DNA of 64,000 nucleotides, taken from NCBI GenBank assembly GCA_021788115.1, contig JAJYLA010000006.1, forward strand, positions 1-64,000, in the 5' to 3' direction. This DNA comes from Actinomycetes bacterium (GTDB lineage Bacteria; Actinomycetota; Acidimicrobiia; Acidimicrobiales; Palsa-688). Every line of letters starts with the position of its first letter. The stretch's first letter is position 1. The notes under the pieces were generated by a model. It ran no database searches and had not been told where the DNA came from. It saw only the letters and a program-made list of their open reading frames with translations. A program made the translations under genes and the position numbers. Of this stretch, positions 5,176-42,517 are shown piece by piece.

Positions 5176-6225
5176 TCACGGTGCGCGCACTACCGGGGTG
5201 TCGGCTCGGTCGAGGGGCAGCCCTCCGAGGGCGGTGTCGGCGGCGGCGGAGATCCAGATCCCGTAGTCCTCGTCGGTGATCCGGTTGGCGGCCACGGTCG
5301 AATGGGTGAGCGCCGCTGTGGCCGCCCGGGTGGCCAGGATGACGCCCACCCTCACAGGCGGACCGTCGGTCTTGCCCCAGCCGTTGCTCGAGACCACGTT
5401 GCTGCTCACGACCGTTCCCGACACCAGGTCGCCGGGGGCGTTGCTGTGCACGATGATCCCCGCGAGGAACGAGCCGGTGACGGTGTTGCCCACGACCGAG
5501 TTGTCCAGGGCGGACGTCCACGGAGTGTCGGCGGCGACCACGATGGCCCCGATGACCGGTCCCTGGGCCGAAAAGACTCCCGTTCTGCCGGTGACGGTGT
5601 TGCGGATCAGGGTGTTGTCGCTCACGCCGGCGCCCTTGTTGTAGGCGGAGACGACCAGACCGCATTCCCCGAAGTTGCCGCTGATCTGGTTGCCCATGAT
5701 CAGGTCGTTCCGAGCCGCCATGAGCGTACCGGGGTTCAGGGCCCCGGGGTCGATCGCACCGTCATCGGTGATGTCTATCCCACCCGAGAAGTTGCCTTTC
5801 ACCACGTTGTCGCGGACGATCGAGTTGCTGGTGCCCGCCAACTGGACGGCCTTGTCCGAACGCACGGCATGGGGGGCGACTCCGTTGCCCTCGACGGTGC
5901 TGTTCTCGATGACGAGGTTCGACGTGTCCTGGGCGAAGATCCCGTGATCGTTGGCGCCGGTCACCGTCACCCCGTTCACCCTTACGCCCGTCACCCCGGG
6001 GCCGATGTAGATGCCGATGTCGCACCCGGCGGCGTCGATGGTGTCCGGGCCGATCCGCTGCCCCGGGGATGCGACCAGCGCCGCGGTCAGGCCCGTCGCG
6101 CCCGCGTCGCTGCACGACGTCCCTCCATCAGCCGAAGCGGAAGCCGGTGCCCCGACCACGCCCAGACCCAGCATCAGCGGGGTGAAGGCGACCAGGCCTG
6201 CAATCCTGAAGCGGAACGTAACCAT
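5176..6225 (-). CDS. Secreted right-handed beta-helix protein (NosD-like/pectate-lyase fold)
   Basis: A 349-residue protein with an N-terminal signal peptide (FRIAGLVAFTPLMLGLGVVG, cleavage near ASA). The rest is built of repeating 20-25-residue coils with N-rich turns (for example NDHGIFAQDTSNLVIENSTV and NVVSSNGWGKTDG), the signature of parallel right-handed beta-helix repeats. No catalytic residues of a known lyase or hydrolase could be assigned, so an adhesive or carbohydrate-binding surface role is as likely as enzymatic activity. The start ATG is set by the ribosome site in AAAGGGGCCATCATGG, a 16-mer that recurs ahead of the divergent neighbour's leader. Confidence 0.8.
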   Translation of the reverse strand: MVTFRFRIAGLVAFTPLMLGLGVVGAPASASADGGTSCSDAGATGLTAALVASPGQRIGPDTIDAAGCDIGIYIGPGVTGVRVNGVTVTGANDHGIFAQDTSNLVIENSTVEGNGVAPHAVRSDKAVQLAGTSNSIVRDNVVKGNFSGGIDITDDGAIDPGALNPGTLMAARNDLIMGNQISGNFGECGLVVSAYNKGAGVSDNTLIRNTVTGRTGVFSAQGPVIGAIVVAADTPWTSALDNSVVGNTVTGSFLAGIIVHSNAPGDLVSGTVVSSNVVSSNGWGKTDGPPVRVGVILATRAATAALTHSTVAANRITDEDYGIWISAAADTALGGLPLDRADTPVVRAP

Positions 6226-6384
6226 GATGGCCCCTTTGGTGATGAGCGGAATCTCTTCCGCCCCCGCATGACATCAGCAACTCCCGCGGACAGCTGTTGG
6301 GACGCTGCCGAAGTCCTTGGTCTCATATGACTATTTCGCTGCCGTACCGATCACACTGCCAGCTGGGTGGCGTCCCTTCCACTT

Positions 6385-6453
6385 CTCCATCAAAAATCCG
6401 CACTCCCTCCACATGGACTCCGCAGAATCTCCACATGGCCATTTTTGAATGAG
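6385..6453. repeat. Phased repeat module 1: five heptamers at 11-bp spacing plus TTGAATGAG
   Basis: Heptamers related to CTCCACA begin at 6385 (CTCCATC), 6396 (ATCCGCA), 6407 (CTCCACA), 6418 (CTCCGCA) and 6429 (CTCCACA), each exactly 11 bp apart. Five bases after the last 11-bp unit comes TTGAATGAG (6445-6453), and AGGACGGA follows at 6459. The same arrangement recurs at 6630-6713. The geometry resembles SARP-type activator sites, which are direct heptamers spaced by 11 bp just upstream of a -10. No gene was found in 6454-6629. Confidence 0.75.
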
Positions 6454-6629
6454 GACACAGGACGGACGCAGTAGTCGCCGCGTCCTCTCCAGCGCCGCGG
6501 CTTCCCTCGCCGGTGGGCGCGGTATCCGGATCGCAACGCCCCTGCGTCCGGAGCCGCGCCCACCTTGTTCTGAAATTCCTCGCCTTCTTCATGCGCCGGC
6601 CACAGCGCCCGCCGGACCGGGTTTTCTCC

Positions 6630-6698
6630 TTCCACCGGAACTCCACACTGCCTCCACAGCTCCTCCACGCAGTCTGCACACTGCCCGCCTTGAATGAG
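6630..6698. repeat. Phased repeat module 2: five heptamers at 11-bp spacing plus TTGAATGAG
   Basis: Heptamers begin at 6630 (TTCCACC), 6641 (CTCCACA), 6652 (CTCCACA), 6663 (CTCCACG) and 6674 (CTGCACA), again exactly 11 bp apart. TTGAATGAG (6690-6698) starts 16 bp after the start of the last heptamer, the same distance as in module 1, and AGGACGGA follows at 6706. The module points toward the 812-residue secreted protein gene and could be its activator-dependent promoter, with TTGAAT as a weak -10. Confidence 0.75.
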
Positions 6699-6721
6699 CG
6701 GTGAGAGGACGGAGCGCGGAT

Positions 6722-6753
6722 CCGGGAGGCGAATGTGGTCGCCTGCCTCCCGG
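6722..6753 (+). other. Stem-loop in the leader of the secreted-protein gene
   Basis: CCGGGAGGC (6722-6730) and GCCTCCCGG (6745-6753) form a perfect 9-bp stem around a 14-nt loop. An alternative pairing GGCGA/TCGCC is possible inside it. It lies between repeat module 2 and the first start codon. There is no U-tract, so it is more likely a leader structure than a terminator. Confidence 0.45.
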
Positions 6754-6825
6754 GGAGCGAATGGCGAAACCGACGTCGAGTGCAACGACGCACGCGGGCA
6801 GCGTGCATTGACGAAAGGGGCCATC

Positions 6826-6903
6826 ATGGGTTCAGGCAGGCCGTTGGGTGAAGCGGGAGATGCTGCCCGCTCGGGGAGGGGGAGCCGGGAATGTCGGTTC
6901 TGA
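6826..6903 (+). CDS. Possible 25-codon leader peptide ahead of the secreted Ig-like protein
   Basis: ATG 6826 is preceded by AAAGGGGCCATC, a strong ribosome site identical to that of the divergent beta-helix gene. The frame runs MGSGRPLGEAGDAARSGRGS... and stops at TGA 6901, overlapping the start of the 812-residue gene (ATG 6891) by 13 nt in a different frame. This arrangement could couple translation of the two. It may also be a relic of an earlier start, so coding status is uncertain. Confidence 0.4.
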   Translation: MGSGRPLGEAGDAARSGRGSRECRF

Positions 6904-9329
6904 GACTTCTTCGCCGGCGTGCTTCGCGCCGGTGGTCGTGGCTGGCGGCCGTTGTGGCCCTGTCGCTTGTTACCGTGTTCTTGCAGGGCATGTCGGGGGC
7001 GATCGTTGGCGGTAGTCCCAGCGGTGTTGAGTCCAATGACGGGAACATGACCCTCGATAACTCCGGGAAGACGGATTGGAACTGTTTCGTCAACTCGTCT
7101 GGCTTCGCAGGTAATGCGGCGACTCCGTCGGGTTGCTACAAGACCGCTGGGGCGAAGCAGGTGACGGCCGATGCCAGTGGCGAGATCACCTGGGTCAACG
7201 GGCAGAAGTTCGACACCAACACCCCGAGACTGGAGACGGGGAGCGTTCCCAATAAGGATGATTTCACCAACGTGGCTTCATTCAGCGAGGTGAACCAGTC
7301 CACCCTGGACACCTACTTCTATGGGGCGACGATCCGTGCCGTGGCGAACGGTAACTCCAGCGGAGATGTCGAGTTCAACCAGAGCGCGGGGGACCAGATC
7401 ACCTCAGCCGGCTCCCGCACCTCCAATGACAAGCTCATGGCGTACGATTTCCTCAACGGTGGTACCAGCCTCTCGTTCCACGTGCTGACCTGGATCACCT
7501 CCCGGACCGACGCCTCCGGCGGCAACAACACCGGTGGAGTCACCGGCTGCTACGTCAAGACCGACAGCCCTCCGTGCTGGGGGGCCAAGGTGCTCATCCC
7601 CGACAGCAGCCTGTTCGAGGGCCAGACCAACCAGCAGGCCATAACCGCGGCCGACAACGGGATCAGCAACAGCGATTTGGCGCCCGAGCAGTTCGCCGAG
7701 TTCGGTGTCAACCTGACGCAGGCGCTCGGCCTGGGGGGCAAGTGCTTCGCCTTCCCGCAGCTGGTGTGGGAGACCCGCTCCTCGGGGTCTAGCTTCACTT
7801 CCAACCCCGAGGACATCGAGTTCGAGAACGCTCAGATCCAGAATTGCGGTGAGATCAAGATCACCAAGCAGACCGATCCACGGGGCGTCAGCCAGGTGTT
7901 CAGCTACAAATCCAACCTGCCCCAGCTCTCCACGGCCGGTGGGGTGGCTTGTCCCACCACTGCCGGGGTGCAGGCGGACGGCAGCCTCTGCCTCAACGAC
8001 GGGATCACAGGTGGGAACACGGTGGACGAGAAGGCCGTCCCGCAGGGCAGCTACACGGTGAGCGAGAGCGCGGAGCCGTCCGGGTTCACCTTCGAGAGCC
8101 TGACCTGCTCGGCGGATGGCACTTCGGGCTCGTCGGTGGTGCCAAGCTCGTCCACCTCGGCCGAGACGGCGTCGATCACGCTGCAGCCCAACGGGGTGGT
8201 CACCTGCACCTACGTCAACCAGCAGAACATTGCCGCCCTGTCCACTCAGGTCTCCGACGCCGGGCCGGTGCTGCCAGGCGCGGCGGTGCATGACACGGCG
8301 ACCGTGACCGGGAACCAGACCTCGCAGACACCGAGCGGGACGGTCAGCTTCTACCTGTGCGCCTTCGCCACCGGATCGACCTCCCTCTGCGACGGGATCA
8401 CCAACGCCGGGACCTCGATCGGAACCGGAACGCTGAGCGGTAGCGGCGCCATCGCCAGCGCCGACTCCCCGGATGTGAACACCCCGACCAGCATCCTCAC
8501 CGCCGGACGGTACTGCCTTCGCGCGGTATGGCCGGGAGATACCAACTACCCGGGGACGCTCACCGAGTACGGGGCCACCGGGGACGCCGAGTGCTTCACC
8601 GTGGCCAAGGCGAACACCAGCACCGTCACCACCCCCAACGACGGTAGCGGCGTGGCCGGGGCGGAGAGCACCATCACCCTGGGCTCCACGATCCACGACA
8701 CCGCCGTGGTGACGGGCACAACCGCTGGTGGGTCGCCCACCGGCAGCGTGACCTTCTCCATCTGCTCGGAGATCGCCACCGGGACCTGTGATGGCAGCAC
8801 CGCCGCCCACACCGGCTCCCCGCTGGGAAGCACCGGGGTAACCCTGGTGGCGTCCGGGGACAACCTCACCTCCACCGCCACATCCGCCGGCTTCAGCCCC
8901 CCCGACGTTGGACGGTACTGCTTTGGCGGTGGCTACAGCGGAAGCACCGTCTACAACGGATCCGCCGACCAGAGCGTCGACGAGTGCTTCATCGTCACCG
9001 ACACCACCGGCATCAAGTCCGGTCAAACCTGGCTTCCGAACGATTCAGGAACGGTCACCGGGACACACGACGCGACCTTGAACGGGACCTTGGCGGCGCA
9101 ACTGTACACAGACGCCACCTGTGGTAGCAGCGGTGGATCCGCCGTATCCGGCCAGCTGTACACCACCACGGTGACCAGCGCCAAGTCGGCCACCGTCACC
9201 ACGAACAACACCACCTACCGGGTGTCGGCCACGGCCAGTGCCTCCTGGCTTATCCACTTCACCAGCTCTGACCCGAATGTGACCGGACAGAGCCACTGCG
9301 AGTCGACCAGCCTCACCATCAACAACTGA
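6891..9329 (+). CDS. Large secreted protein with prealbumin-like and Ig-like domains
   Basis: An 812-residue exported protein. A basic N-terminus and hydrophobic segment (WLAAVVALSLVTVFLQG, about residues 17-33) form a signal peptide. Residues about 35-315 begin with SNDGNMTLDNSGKTDW, as in the N-terminal regions of large actinobacterial surface proteins. About 320-440 (CGEIKITKQTDPRG... to CTYVNQQN) resembles a SpaA/prealbumin-like domain. Two Ig-like repeats follow at about 450-570 and 580-705, each with HDTA(T/V)VTG, PSG/PTGSV(S/T)F, paired cysteines and GRYC. A C-terminal domain with two cysteines ends the chain. No LPxTG, transmembrane anchor or catalytic motif is visible. Probably a secreted adhesin or matrix protein. 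Confidence 0.82.
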   Translation: MSVLRLLRRRASRRWSWLAAVVALSLVTVFLQGMSGAIVGGSPSGVESNDGNMTLDNSGKTDWNCFVNSSGFAGNAATPSGCYKTAGAKQVTADASGEITWVNGQKFDTNTPRLETGSVPNKDDFTNVASFSEVNQSTLDTYFYGATIRAVANGNSSGDVEFNQSAGDQITSAGSRTSNDKLMAYDFLNGGTSLSFHVLTWITSRTDASGGNNTGGVTGCYVKTDSPPCWGAKVLIPDSSLFEGQTNQQAITAADNGISNSDLAPEQFAEFGVNLTQALGLGGKCFAFPQLVWETRSSGSSFTSNPEDIEFENAQIQNCGEIKITKQTDPRGVSQVFSYKSNLPQLSTAGGVACPTTAGVQADGSLCLNDGITGGNTVDEKAVPQGSYTVSESAEPSGFTFESLTCSADGTSGSSVVPSSSTSAETASITLQPNGVVTCTYVNQQNIAALSTQVSDAGPVLPGAAVHDTATVTGNQTSQTPSGTVSFYLCAFATGSTSLCDGITNAGTSIGTGTLSGSGAIASADSPDVNTPTSILTAGRYCLRAVWPGDTNYPGTLTEYGATGDAECFTVAKANTSTVTTPNDGSGVAGAESTITLGSTIHDTAVVTGTTAGGSPTGSVTFSICSEIATGTCDGSTAAHTGSPLGSTGVTLVASGDNLTSTATSAGFSPPDVGRYCFGGGYSGSTVYNGSADQSVDECFIVTDTTGIKSGQTWLPNDSGTVTGTHDATLNGTLAAQLYTDATCGSSGGSAVSGQLYTTTVTSAKSATVTTNNTTYRVSATASASWLIHFTSSDPNVTGQSHCESTSLTINN

Positions 9330-40247: not shown

Positions 40248-41645
40248 CTATCCGCCTAGCAGTGTCACGACGAAACGTGTTCCTCTGCCTTCGACGCTGG
40301 CCGCCGCCACCGTGCCCCCGTGCGCGTGGACCAGGTCCGCCACGACGGCAAGACCGATCCCGCTGCCGGCTCTCCCCGTCGCCGCCCTCCCCCTCCAGAA
40401 CCGTTCGAAGACGTGGGGGATCTCGTCGTCCGGAATCCCGACACCCGTGTCCTCGACGGAGAGCTTCGCCTCTCCCCCCTGGGGAGCCACGGCCAGCTTC
40501 ACGCGGCCGCCGGTCGGGGTGAACTTCATCGCGTTGGTCAGCAGGTTGGCGACGACCTGGTACAGCCGGGTGGCGTCGCCGTTGACGACGGCAGGCTCGA
40601 GTTCGCACCTGAGCATGAGGCCGGCGCGCGCCATCTCCGCTTCTGTCGACGCCGCGGCATCGGCGGCCACGACCGACAGATCGACCGGGTGGCACTCGAG
40701 GGAGAGGGCTTCGATGTCCGCGCTGGCGAGGACCTGCAGATCCTTGACTATCCGGGAAAGACGCAACGTGTCGTCGAGGAGCGACGAGAGGCTCCTCGTG
40801 TCGACGTCGATGACACCGTCCACCATGGCTTCGAGCGAGGCCTGCAGGACGGCGACCGGCGTTCGTAGCTCGTGGGCGACGTCCGCCGCCAGGCGGCGCC
40901 GCAGCAGTTCATGGCACTCGAGGCTTCCCGCCATGGCGTTGAAGGCGTGGGAGAGCTCGACGATGTCGCCCGTCCCCGACGGGGTCGCGACGCGCACGGA
41001 GCGCTCGCCCGACGCCACCGCCCGGGCCGCCTCCACCAGCCGGCGCACCGGGACGGTCATCCTCCGGGACAGCAGTATCCCAACACAGGCAGTGAGCAGG
41101 GCGACGCCCACCGCGCTCCAGCCGACCGCTCCCACAAGAGCCGCCCGCACGCTCGATCCGATCCGGCCGAAACCCCGCCGGCCGACCTCCACCCGCACGG
41201 TGCCGACCTGGGTGGCTCCGTCATCGACGGGGAACGTGAGCGCCGGGCCGAAGACACCGGCCCGAGCGGGAGCGGCCGACTCCACCAGCCGGCCGGAGTT
41301 GTCGAAAACCTCGACCTCGAGCCCCCCGGCGGTCGCCAGGGCGAACAGGTCGGACAGTCGGGCCGCCTGCCAGGAGCCCGCCCTCGAGTAGGAGACGCCG
41401 AGCGCCGACGCCACGGCGCGGCCCATGGCCAGATCCTGCTCGGAGGAGACATCGGTCCCCTCGGTGTCCACCAGGTGGATGGTGATGAAGGCGAACAGGC
41501 CGAGCGACGCCAGCGCCACCAGCGCCATGGTGGCGGACAGCCGGCGGGCGAGCGACGAGCGCGGGCGGGCGAGCGACGAGCGCGGGCGGAAGACCCGGGC
41601 GACGGGGCGTCGAGACGTGGCGTCCAGTGCCGACAGGAGCGACAT
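40248..41645 (-). CDS. Sensor histidine kinase
   Basis: A 465-residue kinase. TM1 is about residues 38-59, an extracytoplasmic sensor follows, then TM2 (SAVGWSAVGVALLTACVGILL) and HAMP. The HisKA motif is LAADVAHELRTPVAVLQASL with the phospho-histidine, and the ATPase boxes are NLLTNAMKFTPTGGRVKL (N), DTGVGIPDDE (G1) and RAGSGIGLAVVADL (G2). A 7-residue block ARPRSSL is tandemly duplicated just before TM1. It starts 7 bp after the response regulator stop. Confidence 0.93.
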   Translation of the reverse strand: MSLLSALDATSRRPVARVFRPRSSLARPRSSLARRLSATMALVALASLGLFAFITIHLVDTEGTDVSSEQDLAMGRAVASALGVSYSRAGSWQAARLSDLFALATAGGLEVEVFDNSGRLVESAAPARAGVFGPALTFPVDDGATQVGTVRVEVGRRGFGRIGSSVRAALVGAVGWSAVGVALLTACVGILLSRRMTVPVRRLVEAARAVASGERSVRVATPSGTGDIVELSHAFNAMAGSLECHELLRRRLAADVAHELRTPVAVLQASLEAMVDGVIDVDTRSLSSLLDDTLRLSRIVKDLQVLASADIEALSLECHPVDLSVVAADAAASTEAEMARAGLMLRCELEPAVVNGDATRLYQVVANLLTNAMKFTPTGGRVKLAVAPQGGEAKLSVEDTGVGIPDDEIPHVFERFWRGRAATGRAGSGIGLAVVADLVHAHGGTVAAASVEGRGTRFVVTLLGG

Positions 41646-41652
41646 GCGGGCG

Positions 41653-42351
41653 TCACCGATCCCGGCTGAGCCGCAGGCGGTACCCGCTCCCGTATACGGT
41701 TTCGACTATCCGCGGGCTGGCGAGGTCGGCTTCGATCTTGTGCCGCAGGTTCTTCACGTGGGAGTCCACGGTTCGCTCGTAGCCGTCGAACTCGTAGCCG
41801 CGAACCTGGTTGATCAGCTGGAGCCTCGAGAAGACCCGCCCGGGCGACGAGGCGAGCACGCGCAAAAGCTTCCACTCTGTCGGGGTCAGCTCGACCGGTT
41901 TGCCTCGTACAGACAGCTCCCGGCGCCCGTGGTCGATCACCAGCTCGCCGCCGCCGAGCGACCAGCGCTCCTCGGCCGGGGTGAGCCGGCCTCCCCGGCG
42001 GAGAACCGCCTGGGTGCGCAGGACCAGCTCCCGCGGGCTGAAGGGCTTGGTGATGTAGTCGTCGACGCCCATCTCGAGGACGCTGATGCGGTCCTGCTCG
42101 GAGTCCCTGGCGGTGATGACCAGGATCGGGACATCGCTCATGGCGCACACCTCTTGGGCCACGTCCTCGCCCGGGACGTCGGGGAGGCCCAGGTCGAGCA
42201 GCACCACGTCGGGGCGGGCGTCCCGGGTGAGCGTTATCGCCTCCGCGCCCGACCCGGTGGACAGCACGGACATGCCCTCCCGCTCGAGGTAGAAGCGCAG
42301 CAAGTCCCTGAGCTTGGTCTCGTCCTCGACGACCAGCACCGTCGCCGACAT
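41653..42351 (-). CDS. OmpR-family response regulator
   Basis: A 232-residue regulator from ATG 42351 (GAAGGGG ribosome site). The receiver domain has the acidic pocket VVEDE and phospho-acceptor Asp53 in LLDLGLPD, the switch Thr in VITARD and Lys in ITKPFSPREL. The winged-helix domain contains LTPTEWKLLRVLA and RTVDSHVKNLRHKIE. Partner of the adjacent kinase; 166 bp after the ABC permease gene. Confidence 0.94.
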   Translation of the reverse strand: MSATVLVVEDETKLRDLLRFYLEREGMSVLSTGSGAEAITLTRDARPDVVLLDLGLPDVPGEDVAQEVCAMSDVPILVITARDSEQDRISVLEMGVDDYITKPFSPRELVLRTQAVLRRGGRLTPAEERWSLGGGELVIDHGRRELSVRGKPVELTPTEWKLLRVLASSPGRVFSRLQLINQVRGYEFDGYERTVDSHVKNLRHKIEADLASPRIVETVYGSGYRLRLSRDR

Positions 42352-42517
42352 TGGCACCCCTTCTCGACCCACTAACCAGCTGCCCGGTCAATCTTCGCGC
42401 ATCGGGACAGCTTGGCGGTAGGAAAGCGCGAACGTCGGATGCCGGGCGAACCCTGGGCGTTGCGGGGCGCCGGCCGCAGCCGGTGCACGATCGGCGTGCG
42501 CTCCCCAGCCGGCCGTT

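Follow-up and report, generated by a model that had tools for sequence, protein, structure and literature searches.

Predicted tandem response-regulator promoters and a c-di-GMP riboswitch upstream of a secreted-protein gene

Organisation of the locus

The window analysed here is a stretch of 64 kb, and the region of interest within it is intergenic, lying between two divergent genes for secreted proteins. On the minus strand, positions 5176 to 6225 encode a secreted right-handed beta-helix protein with NosD-like repeats; on the plus strand, positions 6891 to 9329 encode an adhesin-like secreted protein of 812 aa, with a SpaA/prealbumin-like domain and a start that resembles a signal peptide, which is the predicted target of the control elements described below and for which no homologue was found in 147 related genomes. 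Between these genes lie, all on the plus strand, two modules that each consist of five heptamers and a hexamer, a hairpin that separates the modules, and a riboswitch aptamer behind the second of them.

The two promoters and the riboswitch sit between the arms of a 19-bp inverted repeat, of which 16 bp are perfect (AAAGGGGCCATCATGG). The left arm (6222 to 6240, minus strand) carries the Shine-Dalgarno sequence and the ATG of the beta-helix gene, and the right arm (6811 to 6829, plus strand) has AAAGGGG and an ATG at 6827. Only two copies of the 16-mer are present in the genome, both of them here as the inverted pair. From the ATG in the right arm runs a 25-codon open frame (6827 to 6904, plus strand) that overlaps the start of the gene at 6891 and is possibly a leader peptide.

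Two arrays with a common promoter geometry

Array 1 (6385 to 6435, plus strand) has the consensus CTCCACA and a period of 11 bp, with CTCCATC, ATCCGCA, CTCCACA, CTCCGCA and CTCCACA beginning at 6385, 6396, 6407, 6418 and 6429. In array 2 (6630 to 6680, plus strand) the period is the same and the heptamers at 6630, 6641, 6652, 6663 and 6674 are TTCCACC, CTCCACA, CTCCACA, CTCCACG and CTGCACA. Both arrays had been reported at these positions by a first-pass annotation of this DNA, which held that such spacing was very unlikely to have arisen twice by chance, and both statements are borne out. In a sequence-blind scan of the window for sets of five similar 7-mers with constant spacing, covering all periods from 8 to 24, the two arrays rank first and second at period 11 with scores of 31 and 30 out of 35, 31 being the top value over all of the periods, and the next-best 11-bp array elsewhere scores 27. 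A score of 30 was reached in none of 150 simulated 64-kb windows and in none of 3000 simulated intergenic regions.

The four-base spacers between the heptamers have diverged, with 58 of 115 positions identical across the two modules, so that the heptamers appear to have been kept against a diverged background. Coding bias does not account for the arrays, because the period is no multiple of three, the spacers differ and the region is intergenic. The genome-wide search for such arrays that the same annotation had proposed was carried out as a pattern search of the draft genome (3.58 Mb in 238 contigs, 94% complete), from which all genome-wide motif counts given here are taken; no array of three heptamers with at most one mismatch was found outside the locus.

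Behind each array, and where the first-pass annotation had placed it, TTGAATGAG begins at 6445 and at 6690, its only occurrences in the window (0.1 expected), and AGGACGGA follows downstream at 6459 and 6706. The TTGAAT hexamers at 6445 to 6450 and 6690 to 6695 (plus strand) both lie 9 bp past the last heptamer, and had already been taken as likely -10 elements at this distance. That reading gains from a comparison of 18 array promoters aligned on the last heptamer, 16 of them from other genomes or from elsewhere in this genome. A hexamer of the form T....T stands at exactly the 9-bp offset in 10 of those 16; outside the window the hexamers are TTGGAT (twice), TCGAAT, TCCAAT, TTGGCT (twice), TGCGAT, TGCCAT and others. 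With the window excluded, at least two of T1, A5 and T6 are found at offset 9 in 11/16 promoters, a count that no other offset equals (the next best has 5) and that none of 2000 shuffles reached. An alternative -10, AATGAG at a distance of 12 bp from the array, was dropped since in the column statistics T stands at offsets 9 and 14, which gives TTGAAT. The conserved hexamer thus supports TTGAAT as the -10, and would put the transcription starts near 6457 for promoter 1 and near 6702 for promoter 2. A promoter search returned no sigma-70-type promoter that has both boxes, and the suggestion, made before this analysis, of activator-dependent promoters fits what is predicted here, namely two such promoters upstream of a secreted-protein gene.

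A riboswitch in the predicted second transcript

What the first-pass annotation overlooked is the element behind module 2. Positions 6701 to 6784 (plus strand) match the c-di-GMP-II-GAG riboswitch aptamer (RF03169) over its full length with 50.9 bits, the gathering cutoff of the Rfam family being 40, and the aptamer begins at the predicted start of transcript 2, with AGGACGGA of module 2 falling within its 5' strand. In an alignment with 21 other aptamers the conserved core is intact; P1 pairs only in part and its outer pairs are mostly non-standard. This genome carries four members of the family, which is present in 47 of the 148 genomes searched, above the cutoff in 41, and at the loci that were read in relatives the next gene behind the aptamer mostly has a signal peptide-like start. 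None of 25 other copies examined has a CTCCACA array upstream, unlike the present one with its array promoter directly upstream, and the combination of array and switch has so far been seen only at this locus.

In C. difficile, class II c-di-GMP riboswitches are ON switches, and aptamers of this class are found upstream of adhesins (PMC6200980). The present aptamer likewise precedes a surface or adhesin-like gene; however, it is of the GAG variant and belongs to a bacterium that is not related to C. difficile, and an ON response may be presumed here only tentatively.

Module 1 differs in what follows it. Its predicted transcript, starting at about 6457, also has AGGACGGA near the 5' end, and runs into a very stable hairpin followed by TTGTTCT (6512 to 6564, plus strand), which lies between the modules; the region from 6456 to 6575 folds with -68.5 kcal/mol, a z score of -5.7 against shuffled sequences. 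This hairpin is possibly where a short transcript made from promoter 1 ends, its T-run being weak and terminator and promoter prediction giving no terminator call there. A search for a second riboswitch behind module 1 gave no match even at an E value of 10, and a weak match to the sRNA Scr3202 (22.9 against a cutoff of 52) was set aside as a likeness between hairpins. Module 1 may stand for a short RNA, for a promoter-riboswitch unit that was copied and has since diverged, or for a spare promoter.

Aptamers of this family also occur as pairs. Tandem c-di-GMP-II-GAG aptamers, 226-319 bp apart from start to start, precede a single secreted-protein gene in two related genomes (L279, 2074-2476; L285, 1677-1986), from which it follows that duplication of such units happens. 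Two divergent aptamers about 400 bp apart are found on another contig of this genome (C93; L278, 3871-4448).

Candidate regulators of the arrays

Exact CTCCACR-N4-CTCCACR pairs number four in the genome: two in module 2, one inside a gene that its sequence identifies as a methionine aminopeptidase gene, and one in an intergenic region of contig C171, between the gene of an OmpR-family regulator, with its kinase, and a divergent gene for a small secreted protein. Orthologues of the C171 regulator were taken from other genera. Of the 16 regulators of its clade, 14 have a CTCCACA array at a distance of at most 2.3 kb, whereas none of 17 other OmpR-type regulators does (Fisher p 1.5e-7); the test was made after the motif had been seen, but with genomes that had not been used to define it. 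As at C171, the array often stands in the divergent promoter, with a score there that 100 shuffles of that upstream sequence never equalled, and at most of the clade loci a gene with a ribosome site begins about 75-210 bp past the array. The array-bearing regulators cluster in the tree, with a support of 0.90 at an inner node of 13 members and 0.12 at the node of the whole clade. From the association and the tree, the arrays are most likely operator sites of this clade of response regulators, for which we found no described operator.

Two members of the clade are encoded in this genome. One is the C171 regulator, with its array in the divergent promoter; the other, a candidate regulator of the present locus, is encoded in the window at 41653 to 42372 (minus strand), groups with the array-bearing regulators and is 66% identical to the C171 protein. 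Its start codon is likely the ATG at 42351, and the histidine kinase encoded directly downstream of it (40248 to 41645, minus strand) is probably its partner. No array adjoins this second regulator gene, so the protein acting at the two promoters could be the C171 paralogue, the window regulator, or neither.

The first-pass annotation had looked instead to a SARP-type activator as the protein binding the heptamers, whilst also pointing to OmpR-type regulators, and the genome was searched for both: it encodes one SARP-type protein, and 14 others with an OmpR-type DNA-binding domain. SARP activators share the winged-helix fold and the habit of binding heptamer direct repeats at 11 or 22 bp, and their operators, of the AfsR and PimR type, consist of heptamers or 11-bp repeats beside a weak -10, a description that the spacing and the closeness to the -10 seen here do fit (PMC10936776, PMC5930380). 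The last repeat of SARP sites, however, is 8 bp from the -10 (PMC10936776), as opposed to the 9 bp seen in the two modules and also in relatives, and the heptamer and the protein family are different ones. Furthermore, the single BTAD protein of the genome, of about 1000 residues (contig C55), has no array near it, the best score there being 7.6 against 25-31, and across genera it is OmpR-family regulator genes that the arrays accompany. Binding of the heptamers by a SARP would therefore seem unlikely, and the OmpR-family clade is the better candidate.

Units of the Streptomyces PHO box are GTTCACC-like. Since Streptomyces PhoP binds runs of 11-nt direct repeats, with up to four core and two ancillary units (PMC7866108), the arrays might also be read as PHO boxes of the phosphate regulator PhoP, but words of the GTTCACC-like type, and no CTCCACA array, are what the upstream region of this genome's own pstS keeps, and the regulator encoded next to the pst genes (contig C78) falls outside the clade and is without a CTCCACA array, which makes this reading highly unlikely. 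A closer parallel to operators of the kind predicted here is offered by M. tuberculosis PhoP, a homologous response regulator whose sites are 7-bp motifs in direct repeat, separated by 4 bp (PMC4832192), giving the same 11-bp period; the differences are that the repeated word is CTCCACA and not of the TCACAGC type, that four to five repeats are used in place of a pair, and that the regulator is of another clade.

Least credible of all is a reading of the arrays not as promoters but as DnaA boxes or as arm-type sites for a tyrosine recombinase. TCCACA is indeed the DnaA-box core, helical phasing is possible for recombinase arm sites, and the genome has 34 tyrosine-recombinase matches. None of these (PF00589) is on this contig, however, the window genes that were scanned include no recombinase, the arrays lack the TT with which a DnaA box begins, and across genomes a fixed -10 hexamer trails the arrays and genes with ribosome sites follow them.

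A proposed two-input promoter for a surface protein

The reading that we favour, and think quite probable, is that the locus holds tandem response-regulator promoters that drive a c-di-GMP-gated mRNA of the secreted protein encoded at 6891-9329. Each module would be a promoter switched on by a response regulator of the OmpR/PhoB family, with one subunit per CTCCACA heptamer and five subunits aligned on one face of the helix, and the activator, placed 9 bp ahead of a weak -10 (TTGAAT), would take the place of the absent -35. The transcript of module 2 would start at about 6702 and carry the c-di-GMP-II-GAG riboswitch as its first 84 bases or so, and the adhesin-like protein would then be made when the signal of the two-component system and c-di-GMP agree; judged from the sequence, it is probable that two signals gate this one surface protein. 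Module 1 would give a second transcript, further upstream, that leads into the strong hairpin as a short RNA or serves as a reserve promoter.

On this reading a two-component system found repeatedly across a single bacterial order gains an assigned operator sequence, promoter architecture and regulator clade, and its regulon becomes readable from sequence alone. The locus would also offer one surface-protein promoter at which the inputs of a phosphorelay and of c-di-GMP could be dissected separately.

The inverted repeat allows for a further reading, as 16-bp perfect repeats that flank a promoter segment are the layout of an invertible promoter. The segment from 6241 to 6810 would then be an invertible cassette that flips the promoter-riboswitch unit between the two divergent secreted-protein genes. 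We consider this very unlikely, the search of the contig for tyrosine recombinases and the scan of window genes for any recombinase having been negative as described above, and the repeat could as well be a translation signal shared by the two genes or an old duplication. Were the repeats active, the locus would be a phase-variable promoter that carries a riboswitch with it, and we know of no precedent for that.

Further arrays in related genomes

Arrays of the form TCCNCA in relatives were also checked as possible integrase arm sites, a candidate that was rejected, a weak integrase match being present only at L044 and a predicted tRNA gene only at L052. At one locus (L157, 1243-1280) two divergent CTCCACA arrays adjoin each other, and one of the two lies upstream of the gene of an M48 (HtpX-like) protease near a response regulator. 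In a related genome a TTCCACA array has a histidine-kinase gene region on one side and a sortase-domain gene on the other (L047, 1923). A different word, GTCCTCA, also forms 11-bp arrays, and recurs across several genomes of the same family (L044, 2225; L045, 2400-2430; L046, 64; L053; L054).
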